Source of the DNA: JALSIF01 sp026981635 [NCBI: bacterium]
GTDB taxonomy: Bacteria > 4484-113 > JALSIF01
Assembly (NCBI GenBank): GCA_026981635.1
Contig: JALSIF010000014.1
Location: forward strand, 1 to 6,504
Reading direction: 5' to 3'
Length of the DNA: 6,504 bases
The notes beneath the pieces are model-generated. The model did no database searches. It was not told where the DNA came from and was given only the letters and a program-made list of their open reading frames with translations. Of the stretch, positions 2,001 through 6,504 are shown piece by piece. Within the stretch, counting starts at the first letter, position 1, and each line of letters starts with the position of its first letter. The position numbers and the translations under genes are program-made.

Positions 2001-2672
2001 CTAGTCCAGGAAGAAGCCGATCTCCACCGCGTAGTAGGAGGAGGCGGGGCGACTGTCCAGCACCAGGTAGCTCCCCAGCCAGCCGAACTCGGTCTCCCGG
2101 TAGAGACCGATGCCGCCGGTAAACTCCCCGAACTCCTCCTGGGTGCGCCCGTCCAGGTAGAGGTAGCTCTTCAGTCTGGGGATGTAGTGGGTAAGGCCCA
2201 CCATGGCGTTGGTCTCGCCTCCCTTGCCGAAGGTGTGGATCAGGCCCAGGTGGAGGTCGGTTCCCTGGCCGATCTGCCTTCCCCCCATCAGGTAGTACTC
2301 CGGCCTTCCTCCACCGCCGAGATTCAGCACCGCTCCGCTTATGGTCCAGCCGGCCACCCGCTGGGGGTTCACCAGCCGGGTCTTTATGCCCCAGCTTACC
2401 GAGTCGTAGTCGCCCGAGGTGCCGGCAAAGGGACCCGCCTCCAGCCAGTCGGAGAAGCCGTAGGTGAGGTCCACAAAGCTTCCGTTGAAGCCGTCCCCGG
2501 AGCCGGTCCCCTGCACATAGTCGGAAAGGAGCAGCGCCTTGGACTGGCCCACCAGGTAGGCCGAGGGGACCACATTGAGGAAGGTGACGCTGGCCCCCGC
2601 TGGCCAGGCGGAAAGGGCAATGCCCAGTGCGATGAGGACTGTGGCGCTAAGCAGGTGACGAACTGGCTTCAT
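2001..2672 (-). CDS. secreted, probable outer-membrane beta-barrel protein
   Basis: A 223-residue protein whose family I do not recognise. Residues 1-27 form a signal peptide: MKPVRH basic start, a hydrophobic core (LLSATVLIALGIALSAW) and a PAGA cleavage site, predicting a mature protein from SVTFLNVV. The remainder has no hydrophobic helix but many short alternating strands rich in Gly, Tyr, Phe and Trp, with turns such as GTGSGDG and SGDYDS, ending in YYAVEIGFFLD; this is the look of a small outer-membrane barrel of about 8-10 strands, although the last residue is Asp rather than Phe. The ATG at 2672 directly abuts the TAA of the upstream transporter gene (2673-2675). Its Shine-Dalgarno GGAGG (minus strand, 2685-2681) lies inside the end of that gene, 8 bases from the ATG, so the two are in one operon and probably translationally coupled. 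That places the gene under the same TPP riboswitch transcript. A role in passage of a thiamin-related compound is only an inference from this context. Confidence 0.8.
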   Translation of the reverse strand: MKPVRHLLSATVLIALGIALSAWPAGASVTFLNVVPSAYLVGQSKALLLSDYVQGTGSGDGFNGSFVDLTYGFSDWLEAGPFAGTSGDYDSVSWGIKTRLVNPQRVAGWTISGAVLNLGGGGRPEYYLMGGRQIGQGTDLHLGLIHTFGKGGETNAMVGLTHYIPRLKSYLYLDGRTQEEFGEFTGGIGLYRETEFGWLGSYLVLDSRPASSYYAVEIGFFLD

Positions 2673-4148
2673 TTAGGAGACCTCCATTTCGTAAGTTTCC
2701 TTTCCCCTCTTGCCCCTCCGCTCCATCAGCCTCACTAGCCCCAGGTAGACGAGGGCGGTGATGATGAAACTGGGGATGGCGCTGCCCGTCTTCCACTCCG
2801 GCCAGGCGGGCAGGCCGAGCAGGGTGTGGGCCCAGGAGGGGCTCTGGCCCCACACCGAGATGAGAAGCCCCACCACAAAGGCGATTACTGCCGCACCGCT
2901 TACCCTAGGCAGGCGGGAAAGTTCCGCGTCCCCCAGGGGAGCAAGTTTGCCCCGCCTAAGAATCAGGTAGTCGGTAAGCACCACCGCAAAGATGGGTAGG
3001 AAGACGCTGTTTATCATCAGCAGGAAGTCAAAGTAGCCCGCAAAGAGGGAGGGGGCGAACCACAGGGCAAGCACTATGCCAAGCATCCCGGCCCAGAAGG
3101 AGAGCCAGCGCTCGCTGAGCTTTGGCCAGAGGTTTAGCGAGCTTACCGCTGCCGAGTAGATGTCCAGGAAGGTGGTGGTGAGGGTGGAGATGAGCACCAG
3201 GGTCAGACCCACTACGACGATCTTCAGGGCGTGGGGGCCGCCCAGCTGCTCCAGGGAGTGGGCCACCAGCCGGGCGGGCTCAAACTCGTAGATGGGGGTG
3301 CCGGGGTTTTTAAGGGCGAAGGCTAGCCCGCCGAGCACCCCCACCACGTACATCCACACCGAGCCGGCAAAGTAGCCAAGATGCGTCCCCCAGAAGGAGG
3401 CCCGGCGGGAGCGGGCAAAGCGCCCGTAGTCGGCGGCCAGGGGGACCCAGCTGATCCCCATCGCCACCACGAAGTCAAAGTTGAGCATCAGCCCCCGATC
3501 CGCCTCCACCCTCACCTGGGCGATCTCCCCCAGCGGTACGCTCTTCAGGATGGCGTAGGTCATCACCAGGGTGACCACAAACAGCAGCGCCCCGGCGATG
3601 CGCTGGGCCCAGTGCCAGAAGCGCTCACCCCCCATCGCCCAGGCGGTGGTGAGCAGGCCGGTTAGCACCATCACCCCGGGGTCAAAGTAGCTCTCCACTC
3701 CCCCCTGGATGAGCCAGGGGGTTATCCGTTCGGCCACCTCCGGGGGCACGATAAACACCCCCAGCTCCCGGGTGGCCCGGCAGGCGATGATCAGCATGTA
3801 GCTGGTCCAGCCGATGAGCTGGAGGATGTTGGCCACCGCGGGGAGGTAGCTGCCCAGGTTGCCGAAGCTGAGGCGGGTAAGCACCATGGTGGGCTGGCCC
3901 GCCTCCTGGCCCATGCGGCTTACCGCCCCCAGGAGCAGGTTGGAGAGAAACCGCCCCACCAGGATGATGAGCACCGCCATAAAGAGTCCCGAGGAGACGA
4001 TCTGGGCACCCGACCAGATCTCGTCCACCACGATGGCGGCGCCAAACCAGAGCAGGGCAAGGTCAAGGCCGCTCAGGGTGCGGCGGTTTTCTGCCAGGGG
4101 GCGAAAGCGCGCCTCCCCCCTGGCCTCGGCTGCAGCCGCCTCTCCCAT
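2673..4148 (-). CDS. cytX: NCS1-family transporter, CytX type (thiamin precursor uptake)
   Basis: A 491-residue inner-membrane protein with about 12 hydrophobic segments. It matches the nucleobase:cation symporter-1 family: the first membrane helix LLWFGAAIVVDEIW (about residues 32-45), then the typical loop GQPTMVLTRLSFGNLGSYLPA (about 85-104) and LQLIGWTSYM (about 109-118). Family members import purines, cytosine, allantoin, hydantoins or, for CytX, the thiamin pyrimidine precursor hydroxymethylpyrimidine. The choice of CytX rests on the TPP riboswitch in its leader rather than on residues I can prove to be diagnostic; thiamin itself is another possible substrate. Start ATG 4148 is preferred over an in-frame ATG at 4238 because it has a strong Shine-Dalgarno GGAGG (minus, 4160-4156) 7 bases upstream, because the extra 30 residues are Arg/Pro-rich and unlike the family, and because the longer start would lie inside the riboswitch expression platform. 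The stop codon touches the ATG of the barrel gene. Confidence 0.85.
   Translation of the reverse strand: MGEAAAAEARGEARFRPLAENRRTLSGLDLALLWFGAAIVVDEIWSGAQIVSSGLFMAVLIILVGRFLSNLLLGAVSRMGQEAGQPTMVLTRLSFGNLGSYLPAVANILQLIGWTSYMLIIACRATRELGVFIVPPEVAERITPWLIQGGVESYFDPGVMVLTGLLTTAWAMGGERFWHWAQRIAGALLFVVTLVMTYAILKSVPLGEIAQVRVEADRGLMLNFDFVVAMGISWVPLAADYGRFARSRRASFWGTHLGYFAGSVWMYVVGVLGGLAFALKNPGTPIYEFEPARLVAHSLEQLGGPHALKIVVVGLTLVLISTLTTTFLDIYSAAVSSLNLWPKLSERWLSFWAGMLGIVLALWFAPSLFAGYFDFLLMINSVFLPIFAVVLTDYLILRRGKLAPLGDAELSRLPRVSGAAVIAFVVGLLISVWGQSPSWAHTLLGLPAWPEWKTGSAIPSFIITALVYLGLVRLMERRGKRGKETYEMEVS
2681..2685 (-). promoter_or_regulatory. ribosome binding site of the barrel gene, inside cytX
   Basis: GGAGG on the minus strand, 8 bases before the ATG at 2672 and inside the last codons of the transporter gene. 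Together with the TAA-ATG junction it supports translational coupling of the two genes and fixes the start of the downstream one. Confidence 0.75.
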
Positions 4149-4292
4149 GGGTACACCTCCCTTGTGCGCCCTCAGGCGCAGGATTTGCCGGTGTACCTGG
4201 GGAGCCTGCCGCCGTCCCCACCCCCGCCGCAGGCCCAATTTGCACCTGCACCGGGTAGGGGGAGCGGCAAAGAGAGATTCAGCGTCCTTTCG
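4149..4292 (-). promoter_or_regulatory. riboswitch expression platform with SD-sequestering stem
   Basis: This is the mRNA leader between the TPP aptamer and the cytX start. The segment GGUACACC (minus, 4197-4190) is perfectly complementary to GGUGUACC (4157-4150), which includes the last two G of the Shine-Dalgarno GGAGG (4160-4156) and runs to one base before the ATG at 4148. A second perfect 6-bp hairpin, UGCGCC-UGAG-GGCGCA (4180-4165), is nested between the two arms. Pairing of the outer stem would block ribosome binding, so the switch most likely acts on translation. The 3' strand of aptamer stem P1 (GGUACC, 4298-4293) can form five base pairs with the GGUAC of the sequestering arm, offering a possible anti-sequestor when TPP is absent. 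No stem followed by a U run is present, which argues against control by termination. Confidence 0.65.
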
Positions 4293-4386
4293 GGTACCTT
4301 CCCTGCGCCGGCATTACCCGGATCAGGTTCTAGGGGTCGGACGCCAAGTCCCTCTCAGCCCGCCTCCTGCGAGCTCCCCCGGTACC
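4293..4386 (-). ncRNA. TPP riboswitch aptamer (THI element)
   Basis: The minus strand carries the conserved THI-box parts in order: P1 5' strand GGUACC (4386-4381), P2 5' arm GGGG, a small P3 hairpin CUCGC-AGGAG-GCGGG, CUGAGA (4358-4353), an added hairpin GGAC-UUGGC-GUCC, P2 3' arm ACCCC, then ACCUGAUC (4328-4321), GGGUAAUGCCGGCG and AGGGAA, closing with the P1 3' strand GGUACC (4298-4293). CUGAGA binds the pyrimidine ring of thiamin pyrophosphate and the ACCUGAUC/GGGUAAUGCCGGC arm holds the pyrophosphate in known TPP aptamers. P1 is a perfect 6-bp helix. The aptamer starts only a few bases after the predicted transcription start and is followed by a sequestering stem at the cytX ribosome binding site. 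High TPP should lower expression of the transporter and barrel genes. Confidence 0.95.
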
Positions 4387-4393
4387 AGGTCCA

Positions 4394-4424
4394 ATTATAA
4401 GCACATCATCAATTGGCTAGTCAA
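4394..4424 (-). promoter_or_regulatory. sigma70-type promoter of the cytX operon
   Basis: On the minus strand a -35 box TTGACT (4424-4419) and a perfect -10 box TATAAT (4399-4394) are separated by 19 bases, slightly longer than the usual 17. Transcription would begin near 4387, right at the first strand of aptamer helix P1, leaving a leader of about 240 nt. The inverted pair CCAATT (4391-4396) and AATTGG (4411-4416) spans the -10 box and spacer. Confidence 0.65.
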
Positions 4425-4454: not shown

Positions 4455-4934
4455 CTACTTAGGCTCCTCCGGGTCCGACCAGGGGTCCTCCTCCCAGGGC
4501 ATGGTCTCCGAGGTGATGAAGGGGTCGTGCCCCGGCTCAGCGAAGGGGTCTGCCCCCATGGCCTCGGTGAAGGGGTCGCCCCCCAGGGCCTCCTCCAACG
4601 GATCGGGGCCCATGATCTCCTCAATGGGGTCGCCAAAAAGCTCCCGCGCAATGTCCTCCCGCTCCATCTGCTCCATCAGCCGGTCGGAGGTGGTGCTCAC
4701 CTCGGGGCGGTAGAAGCGGCGAAGCTGGGGACTGGCAAACTTGAGCAGCAGGGCGGGGTTCTTGCCCGCTGAGAGGCGGTTTCCGTAGAGGTCCCAGGTG
4801 CCCTCTTCGGTGATGAGGCCGATTACCCGGCCATACATATCCATCCAGTAGCCCTCCAGCTGGTCGCGGTCCTCCATGTTGAAGGCGATGGGATACCCCG
4901 CCTCATTAACAATCTCCCCTCTGCGATTAGCCAT
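4455..4934 (-). CDS. acidic protein with five 9-residue DP repeats, unknown function
   Basis: I do not recognise this 159-residue protein. It has three visible parts. Residues 1-66 hold Gly- and aromatic-rich strands, with two similar units, EGYWMDMYGRVIG (27-39) and EGTWDLYGNRLSAG (44-57), suggesting a small repeated beta-structure. Residues 67-100 are charged and probably helical (LRRFYRPEVS, RLMEQMEREDIARELF). Residues 102-142 contain tandem units beginning DPI, DPL, DPF, DPF and DPF at 102, 111, 120, 129 and 137, with the consensus DP-(I/L/F)-x-E-x-(M/L)-G-x. The tail (PWEEDPWSDPEEPK) is acidic and likely disordered. No signal peptide or membrane segment. The ATG at 4934 has an AGGAGG site (minus, 4950-4945) 10 bases upstream. 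It is divergent from cas10 and lies on the same strand as cytX, 30 bases upstream of that operon's -35 box. Antisense frames lack such signals. Confidence 0.75.
   Translation of the reverse strand: MANRRGEIVNEAGYPIAFNMEDRDQLEGYWMDMYGRVIGLITEEGTWDLYGNRLSAGKNPALLLKFASPQLRRFYRPEVSTTSDRLMEQMEREDIARELFGDPIEEIMGPDPLEEALGGDPFTEAMGADPFAEPGHDPFITSETMPWEEDPWSDPEEPK
4509..4631 (-). repeat. tandem 27-base coding repeats (DP motif)
   Basis: Five consecutive DP units encoded at 27, 27, 27 and 24-base spacing. On the plus strand this shows as recurring GGGGTC-like words near 4521, 4545, 4572, 4600 and 4626. The copies differ at DNA level more than at protein level, which suggests selection for the DP-hydrophobic-x-E pattern rather than a very recent duplication. 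Confidence 0.7.
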
Positions 4935-5046: not shown

Positions 5047-6504
5047 ATGGAACCAAAGAATAGACCTCAACCCACTCCTGCCTATCTGGCCGCTCTTGCG
5101 GGATTCTTACATGATCTGGGAAAGGTTGGACAACGTGCCTATCCCCCCGGTATTGAGGGGGTAAGAGAAGCTTTTCCTGAGGCGGAGAGCAATTTCAGAG
5201 AGGAGAACTGGCACCTTTGGCTTAAGGACCATCATCAGTACAGAGAAGGAGAAAAGGTCACCTGGTTCTCCCACTACCACGTTCTCTGGTCTGGATACTT
5301 GGCGGAGCAGTTGGGGCTTACGGATGAGTGGAAGCCGGTTCGCCAAGCTGTATTACTGCACCACTGCCCGACCCCCAACGCCCCCCTCTCGGAGCTACTT
5401 GCCCGGGCCGACCGCCTAGCCAGCGGCATGGATCGGATCACCGTCCCGGAGAAGGGAGATGCCTGGAAAACCCCACTGATTCCCATTCTCAAGGAGGTTG
5501 GGCTTCAGGTTGAGACTGGAAATGGCTTGTCTGGAGAGGCTGGACCCGACGATGACTGCGGTTTCCCCCTGGGATATGGACTGGAACTGGCCGAGGATAA
5601 GTATCCCGCCCGTGGCTTCCCTTTCCCTCAGCCGGGGCAGTCCCTGAGTGAAAGTGAATACGAGAAACTCTGGGGAGAAATCCTTAACGTTGCAAAAGAG
5701 CTCAGGTTCGGTGGCGACCCGGATATAGCTGTTTCCCAAGTGGCTGGCCTGGTTGAGTGGTACTGCTGGCCTGTTCATGACTCCTCCTACGGAACCGTAA
5801 ACGACGTGAGTCTGGCTGATCATTCCAGGGCGGTAGCCACCGTTGCCGCCTGCCTGGCGAGGGTGGCTGAGGAGCGGACCGGTTCAAGCCAGGTTGGAGA
5901 ATGGGCGGTAACTGAACTCTTTGGGAACTACCCCAAAGAGGCAAGGAAGAGTGAACCGGAAGGGGTTGATCCCTCCTTCAAGGAGGACATCTTCAGGCTG
6001 GTAGTTGGCGATCTCAAGGGGATTCAGCGCTTCATCTACGACGTCTTTGGTGAGGGGACGGCAAAGCAGCTTAGGGCTAGGAGTTTCACCGTAGAGATCT
6101 GGTGCGATCGGCTGGCCGCCTATCTCTGCCGAGAGGTGGGGATCCCCGAAGCCTGCCGCATATATGCCACCGGCGGCAAGTTCCTCCTCCTTCTTCCCAA
6201 TCTGACGAAACTCACCTGGAAGGACAGCTCGGAAAACCGTCACCAAGGTAGCCTGACTGACTATCTTAGGTACTTCCAGGACCTGGTAAATGAGGACATA
6301 GAGCAGACCTTTGACCACCGGGTACCTTTGCGGCTGGTGCTTGCGTCGGTTCCCCTGAGCCAGCTTGACCTGATCAAGCCGGGGAAGCTTAGGGAGAAGC
6401 TTGATGAGCTGATGAAGCTTCTCAACCTGGCCTCCGGCCACCCCTACTGGGAGCTGCCGGGGGAATTTTTCTCTCCCCTGGAGCCGCCCGCTGAATACAT
6501 CTCA
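5047..6504 (+). CDS. cas10 (csm1): type III CRISPR Cas10/Csm1, N-terminal part (3' end outside window)
   Basis: An open frame of 486 codons runs from ATG 5047 to the last base of the window with no stop. Residues 1 to about 130 form an HD nuclease domain: FLHDLGK with H22 and D23, HYH at 76-78, HHC with H105-H106, and ADRLASGMDR at about 121-130, the usual end of the Csm1 HD domain. A less conserved linker follows. The first Palm domain begins near residue 318 with VVGDLKGIQRFIY (D322), then AKQLRARSF and ATGGKFLLLLPN (G376-G377). The GGDD cyclase motif of the second Palm lies beyond the window, so cyclic oligoadenylate synthesis cannot be judged. Cas10 is the signature subunit of type III effector complexes that cut transcript-bound DNA; the HD region and ADRLASGMDR favour Csm1 (III-A) over Cmr2. 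AGGTGG (5038-5043) is a weak, close ribosome site. It is the first gene of its unit; the csm genes would follow downstream. G+C is lower than in the genes to the left. Confidence 0.9.
   Translation, partial: MEPKNRPQPTPAYLAALAGFLHDLGKVGQRAYPPGIEGVREAFPEAESNFREENWHLWLKDHHQYREGEKVTWFSHYHVLWSGYLAEQLGLTDEWKPVRQAVLLHHCPTPNAPLSELLARADRLASGMDRITVPEKGDAWKTPLIPILKEVGLQVETGNGLSGEAGPDDDCGFPLGYGLELAEDKYPARGFPFPQPGQSLSESEYEKLWGEILNVAKELRFGGDPDIAVSQVAGLVEWYCWPVHDSSYGTVNDVSLADHSRAVATVAACLARVAEERTGSSQVGEWAVTELFGNYPKEARKSEPEGVDPSFKEDIFRLVVGDLKGIQRFIYDVFGEGTAKQLRARSFTVEIWCDRLAAYLCREVGIPEACRIYATGGKFLLLLPNLTKLTWKDSSENRHQGSLTDYLRYFQDLVNEDIEQTFDHRVPLRLVLASVPLSQLDLIKPGKLREKLDELMKLLNLASGHPYWELPGEFFSPLEPPAEYIS

Follow-up and report, generated by a model that had tools for sequence, protein, structure and literature searches.

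The locus described here raises the question of whether a small outer-membrane barrel, encoded immediately behind a permease gene that is itself preceded by a thiamin pyrophosphate (TPP) riboswitch, could act as the outer-membrane partner of that permease. On its minus strand the window (the whole stretch of 6,504 nucleotides that was analysed) carries a TPP aptamer, a cytX-like permease gene and the barrel ORF, in this order (Table 1). The span 2001-4148 comprises the barrel gene and cytX, and the riboswitch falls outside it. An earlier note on this DNA had described contact between the stop codon of cytX and the start codon of the barrel gene, a Shine-Dalgarno sequence of the barrel gene inside cytX, and a TPP aptamer in the shared leader, and all three were found again. 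The TAA of cytX (2673-2675) abuts the ATG of the barrel gene (2670-2672) with 0 nt between them, a GGAGG motif lies within the end of cytX, and the full aptamer was matched by RF00059 in the cmscan analysis of the window with 74.7 bits (gathering score 54.3, E 7.4e-14). A GGAGG with a nearby ATG is in itself not rare (4 in the window vs 2.65 expected).

Table 1. Features of the riboswitch-cytX-barrel locus with their positions in the window.
Feature	Positions	Strand	Basis
TPP riboswitch aptamer (THI element), full length	4282-4390	-	cmscan RF00059, model 1-105 of 105
5' arm GGUACACC, predicted stem pairing with the cytX Shine-Dalgarno region	4190-4197	-	minimum-energy folds
3' arm GGUGUACC, predicted stem; overlaps the last two bases of the cytX Shine-Dalgarno	4150-4157	-	minimum-energy folds
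cytX Shine-Dalgarno GGAGG	4156-4160	-	sequence
cytX-like NCS1 permease, 491 aa, predicted HMP (hydroxymethylpyrimidine) importer	2673-4148	-	PF02133, TIGR02358
Barrel-gene Shine-Dalgarno GGAGG within the end of cytX	2681-2685	-	sequence, 8 nt 5' of ATG
Small outer-membrane barrel gene, 223 aa	2001-2672	-	ORF, codon score, family profile
Likely signal peptide, residues 1-28	2589-2672	-	sequence read by eye
Modelled mature region, 196 residues, 12 predicted strands	2004-2591	-	AlphaFold2

Three further genes of the window deserve mention. Directly upstream of the riboswitch, a 159-residue protein is encoded on the minus strand (4455-4934); it has no Pfam or NCBIfam match and ends in DP repeats (GGDPF, GADPF, GHDPF). 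The plus strand carries the start of a type III-A Cas10/Csm1 gene (5047-6504; TIGR02578, 191.6 bits), whose GC3 of 0.642, compared with about 0.85 in its neighbours, hints at a recent arrival. Also on the plus strand, a gene for a 537-residue metallopeptidase (384-1997) converges with the barrel gene, only 3 bases separating the two ends; its product scores above the Pfam cut-offs of the families M2 (54.9 bits), M3 (44.2 bits) and M32 (31.6 bits) and far under the NCBIfam M3 cut-offs.

In order to assess how the riboswitch may control cytX, the leader was folded and scanned for terminators. In the minimum-energy folds of the stretches 4130-4395 and 4130-4285, the end of the cytX Shine-Dalgarno sits in the stem formed by GGUACACC and GGUGUACC. 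Compared with shuffled sequences, the folds reached z scores of -4.57 and -3.57, respectively, values that describe the whole stretches and not the Shine-Dalgarno stem, and the aptamer structure was not reproduced when the leader was folded as a whole to minimum energy. The cytX Shine-Dalgarno region was found in a predicted stem in four of the seven class leaders (folds read by eye), the other three being ambiguous and partly having a doubtful start codon. Control by a terminator in the leader was considered and set aside: the minus-strand candidates (2966-2985, 3760-3772 and 3986-3998) are all located within cytX and the total number of terminator-like sites in the window scan (4 vs 2.0 expected) is near chance. 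For this reason masking of the Shine-Dalgarno is weakly favoured over termination. Translational control of cytX by such masking, with the stem responding to TPP binding, is plausible on the basis of these folds.

The permease belongs to the NCS1 family (PF02133, 113.3 bits; Pfam cut-off 23.5). Its best NCBIfam model was TIGR02358 (putative HMP transporter CytX), which it matched with 246.7 bits, below the curated cut-off of 309.85. This cut-off was exceeded in none of the 10 class genomes, all seven CytX-like proteins of the class scoring below it, and the label "CytX-like" is based on the best model together with the riboswitch and the ThiC pattern. At E 0.001, the TIGR02358 search returned a CytX-like permease in 7/10 class genomes and also matched 3/14 control genomes (E. 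coli, B. subtilis and Sulfolobus), which indicates that the model can catch other NCS1 permeases. At E 1e-40 the same seven class genomes were kept and none of the 14 controls. ThiC, for which 13 of the 14 controls were positive, was detected in the remaining three class genomes and in none of the seven CytX-bearing ones. The chance of such an exclusion, calculated by hand, is 1 in 120 if the genomes are independent; however, all three genomes with ThiC come from a single family, and the exclusion may reflect one event. Since the window genome is 85% complete, ThiC could be missing by chance from this genome taken alone. Moreover, a TPP riboswitch was located upstream of cytX in all seven CytX-bearing class genomes, one being found per genome among the candidates scored (first-look candidates were scored in part in 4/10 genomes), and a ThiE-family protein was present in all 10, the window genome included. 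In the CytX tree the window cytX clustered with those of two other class genomes, G002 and G004 (about 46% identity, support 1.0); the tree places the gene within its own class and gives no obvious sign of a misbinned contig.

As ThiC is missing from precisely those class genomes that carry CytX, the operon was read as an HMP-salvage operon. HMP transport by the CytX-like permease is thus predicted with support from the exclusion pattern of the class, and we regard the riboswitch-CytX part of this reading as very probably correct. The same ThiC-less pattern has been used in print to argue that CytX imports HMP (PMC5874261, in excerpt), and a ThiE-family protein in a genome in which ThiC was not found fits the use of HMP over that of ready-made thiamin. 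Both points speak against the alternative that the cargo of CytX and the barrel is thiamin itself or a vitamer other than HMP, which we consider unlikely. What leaves some room for such a cargo is that the permease stays under the TIGR02358 cut-off, that the specificity of the family is not readable from sequence, and that the specificity of the SAR11 CytX is given as undetermined in another report (PMC11452348, in excerpt).

In the three class genomes with ThiC and without CytX (G003, G006 and G009; loci L018, L015 and L019), a TPP riboswitch directly precedes a different gene. The product at L015 is AIR-synthase-like (PF00586/PF02769) and the ORFs at L018 and L019 look alike by eye. This gene bears no obvious thiamin name, and a ThiL-like function is possible.

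The barrel ORF is coding: its codon score was 0.461 vs at most 0.039 in the other five frames, and its GC3 (0.857) compares with 0.859 for cytX. The protein alone had no match in Pfam, NCBIfam or PHROGs, and a thioesterase identity was rejected as the PDB sequence matches were at chance level only. Relatives at E 0.001 were found neither in 59 other genomes nor in a first scan of genome contigs, and scans of viral contigs gave no match. The first bridge was a weak relative (L010, E 0.029) in G004, a genome of the same class. From this bridge the profiles A1 and A2 were built; of four new places, two (L026 and L027) were taken into A2 and the other two (L028 and L029, open frames of 931 and 438 aa) were left out. 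With the profile based on L010 and two further relatives, family members were found at E 0.001 in 35 of 385 genomes, window genome included, matches without a named locus being used for positions only; a second scan of genome contigs yielded four loci with partly identical sequences. A profile built without the window protein scored it with 28.9 bits (E 1.6e-8), the next of 267 ORFs reaching 2.6 bits, and when L010, its closest relative, was left out as well the protein still reached 18.4 bits, or 14.8 bits without its signal peptide, the best of 2000 shuffles scoring 6.2 bits; these leave-out tests are not fully independent, since the profiles used to gather the relatives in the first place had included the window protein. 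Pairwise, it is distant from all relatives (best BLAST E 0.22).

Six of 10 scanned relatives had a match, in most cases a weak one, to one of two barrel families in Pfam, YjbH and OMP_b-brl. YjbH (PF06082) was matched by five of them at the N-terminal part of the profile, four remaining below the cut-off of 24 bits and L043 exceeding it with 26.1 bits. OMP_b-brl (PF13505) was matched by two, L034 above the cut-off and L027, which matches both families, below both cut-offs. Neither family was recognised in the other four (L035, L042, L045 and L055), of which L055 showed a stray weak pectate-lyase-like Pfam match. The collected barrel family is a broad set.

The fold of the barrel protein was predicted with AlphaFold2. 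A single-sequence model was uninformative (pLDDT 31.7) and was set aside. The structure prediction suggested as a check in the earlier note, run on five sequences (the window protein and four distant relatives), gave 12 strands and no helix at low confidence (pLDDT 51.4, pTM 0.46), and the best matches of this model were outer-membrane barrels rather than another fold. In the Foldseek search against the PDB, the general porin OmpU ranked first (E 2.2e-4, TM only 0.45) and KdgM second (E 4.4e-4, TM 0.69 by query length). KdgM was also the top match of this low-confidence model in VIA-align (Z 16.8, rmsd 2.6, 162 aligned residues), the further top rows being NalP, NanC (Z 15.9), the autotransporter EstA, a COG4313 channel and FapF (Z 15.6). 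KdgM and NanC are 12-stranded specific porins for the uptake of acidic sugars, which the window protein resembles in size, predicted strand number and modelled fold; it differs from them in having no sequence-family match. Since the model resembles autotransporter domains roughly as closely as it does porins, the fold indicates a barrel and not a function. The shallow-alignment model is suggestive of a small outer-membrane barrel. Omp85 is encoded in 10/10 class genomes, in the window genome on contig C276, and the cell is therefore diderm.

The partial YjbH signal among the relatives and the FapF match of the model would also be in line with a YjbH/FapF-type surface or export protein, involved in the secretion of a polysaccharide or polypeptide and not in import. 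YjbH has reportedly been implicated in polysaccharide secretion and its N-terminal half is described as FapF-like (PMC9603273, in excerpt). The window protein itself lacks a PF06082 match and, with about one third of the length of YjbH, is short of the two-barrel form, its likeness to the N-terminal YjbH barrel passing through the alignments of its relatives. Relatives of YjbH length (629-663 aa) exist as separate genes in six class genomes and none was found in the window genome. Moreover, neither Pfam nor NCBIfam revealed a gene for polysaccharide export in the window, and the uptake porins KdgM and NanC match the model at least as well as FapF does. An export role appears rather improbable to us.

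Whether the barrel goes with CytX, with TPP riboswitches or with thiamin genes was assessed across the 385 genomes. At E 1e-40 these contain 18 cytX loci, 13 of them with a TPP riboswitch in the flanking DNA examined (7/7 in the class, 6/11 elsewhere). A barrel-family ORF was found beside one of the 18, the window itself, and beside none of the 17 others, including the six of the class. Several of the other loci carry thiM-thiE-like or thiE-thiD-like genes after cytX, and others carry unrelated ones (ORFs read by eye). At least 23 of the 35 barrel-family genomes have a TPP riboswitch at E 0.001, at least 21 of them above the cut-off, the scoring having covered 80 first-look candidates in most of these genomes. 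Among the scored candidates a barrel member and a TPP riboswitch were close together in 0/22 other genomes, a test limited by fragmented assemblies; only in G373 did the two share a contig, about 418 kb apart and with a riboswitch match below the cut-off.

The neighbour survey covered 20 relatives of 180-310 aa out of 29 proteins, nine longer ones being left out. The neighbours that were scanned showed no recognisable thiamin gene; they included lpxC/lpxD, purN, dnaE, accA, rpiA, radical-SAM, ammonium transporter, amino-acid permease, CstA and CorA genes, and at L026 a gene without a Pfam match. No thiamin gene was seen by eye at L071-L074 either, loci with longer flanks and partly the same sequences. 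Given the 0/17 cytX loci, the 0/22 riboswitch genomes and the neighbours of the 20 relatives, the barrel does not belong to a thiamin-specific family. The general partnership of such barrels with CytX envisaged in the earlier note was thus not borne out at the family level, as tested here by homology and genome context; from its proposal of a small porin-like channel for HMP or thiamin, the barrel is retained on the grounds of fold and family, and the dedication to thiamin compounds finds no counterpart among the relatives. Of the two outcomes named in that note as refuting the idea, homologs that stay away from thiamin genes were thus observed at family level within the range covered here, and a fold other than a barrel was not.

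The same observations lend weight to a different view, in which the riboswitch and cytX already form a complete HMP-salvage system and the barrel is a co-transcribed passenger, an envelope protein serving, for example, general permeability or a surface structure. The barrel is missing from all six other cytX loci of the class, and the neighbours of its relatives (lpxC/lpxD, purN, dnaE, rpiA, radical-SAM) share no common theme. Set against this, the tight stop/start junction and the internal Shine-Dalgarno place translation of the barrel behind the riboswitch-controlled gene, and a simple scan found no promoter-like match inside cytX, such scans missing other promoter types. We take the passenger view to be a serious possibility that falls somewhat short of an even chance.

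Two further arrangements were seen among the relatives. At L043 (1468-2118) and L044 (1312-1962), in two genomes, a radical-SAM/SPASM gene overlaps with its end the barrel ORF, after which a DUF3842 gene comes next, and at L027 and L034, in two genomes of different families, the barrel gene lies between lpxD and lpxC.

An inner-membrane transporter gene was the immediate neighbour in 5/20 relatives (L042, L045, L055, L010 and L037). The first three are mutually close, which leaves three independent transporter-adjacent cases in addition to the window. At L042, L045 and L055, the small barrels have genes for an ammonium transporter, P-II and an amino-acid permease next to them, and at L042 the frame of the amino-acid permease runs on into a P-II domain. 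Transporter adjacency as a trait of the family was rejected, its frequency being, by estimate, not clearly above the rate expected for two random neighbours. A more far-reaching reading would be that evolution draws on small YjbH-N-like 12-stranded barrels as a modular supply of outer-membrane channels, each placed beside one inner-membrane permease (CytX here; ammonium transporter/P-II/amino-acid permease, CstA and CorA elsewhere). In the window, a vitamin precursor would then cross both membranes by a path that needs no TonB and is controlled by a riboswitch. We hold this to be an improbable, speculative extension.

In our preferred interpretation, the two genes form an HMP-salvage operon of a diderm bacterium which is apparently unable to make HMP. 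At low cellular levels of TPP, the riboswitch would permit translation of cytX, presumably by unmasking of its Shine-Dalgarno, and the barrel would be translated along with cytX through stop/start coupling. HMP or related compounds could then diffuse in through the barrel as a 12-stranded outer-membrane channel, CytX would carry HMP or a close vitamer across the inner membrane, and the ThiE-family enzyme of the genome would use it. The barrel may have been recruited once for this purpose, from a widespread, general-purpose family without a fixed partner. A molecule of the size of HMP can pass through ordinary porins, so that a dedicated HMP channel is not required. The complete mechanism, with the barrel as outer-membrane channel for the same compound, is suggested by operon position and fold and is held tentatively, at close to but below an even chance. 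The role of the barrel, deduced from one genome, may be that of a channel, and the passenger view is nearly as likely.

TonB-dependent receptors consist of a plug and a barrel of about 22 strands and usually comprise 600 aa or more; with 223 aa and no Pfam match, the barrel was rejected as a member of this group. According to excerpts of the respective reports, TPP riboswitches control a TonB receptor, OMthi (BT2390), and the inner-membrane thiamin-related transporter PnuT in Bacteroides, in the same locus or in a separate operon (PMC5613172), and Caldithrix abyssi has a similar TPP-riboswitch TonB-receptor locus (PMC5317091). The window resembles both in pairing a TPP-riboswitch outer-membrane protein with an inner-membrane transporter. 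Whereas those systems use large TonB-dependent receptors with PnuT or a sodium-solute symporter, the window encodes a 223-aa barrel with CytX. In Geobacter, a Fur-controlled putative porin gene lies next to (before) feoAB (PMC545781, in excerpt), where, too, a gene for a porin-like protein shares its regulation with the inner-membrane importer of a single nutrient; the families and the nutrient are other ones and the regulator is a protein, the window having a riboswitch. With the TPP-riboswitch CytX loci of the six other class genomes the window shares the riboswitch before cytX and a genome in which ThiC was not found, and it differs from them, as from all others of the 18 loci, by the barrel gene after cytX. 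In the excerpts of the literature searched, no small barrel turned up together with CytX or under the control of a TPP riboswitch, and the outer-membrane partners described there for TPP riboswitches are TonB receptors. The TPP riboswitch and the CytX importer are of known kinds, and the small barrel after cytX, seen once, would be a new addition to them.

To our knowledge, the passage of HMP across the outer membrane of HMP-requiring bacteria has rarely been asked about. HMP auxotrophy has been called frequent in plankton (PMC11452348, in excerpt). If the barrel is a passenger, the clean exchange of ThiC and CytX within the class would be the lasting result. If the preferred interpretation is true, a riboswitch-controlled channel beside an HMP importer would provide a concrete gene for the passage of HMP across the outer membrane, and TonB receptors would not be the sole outer-membrane partners of TPP riboswitches.
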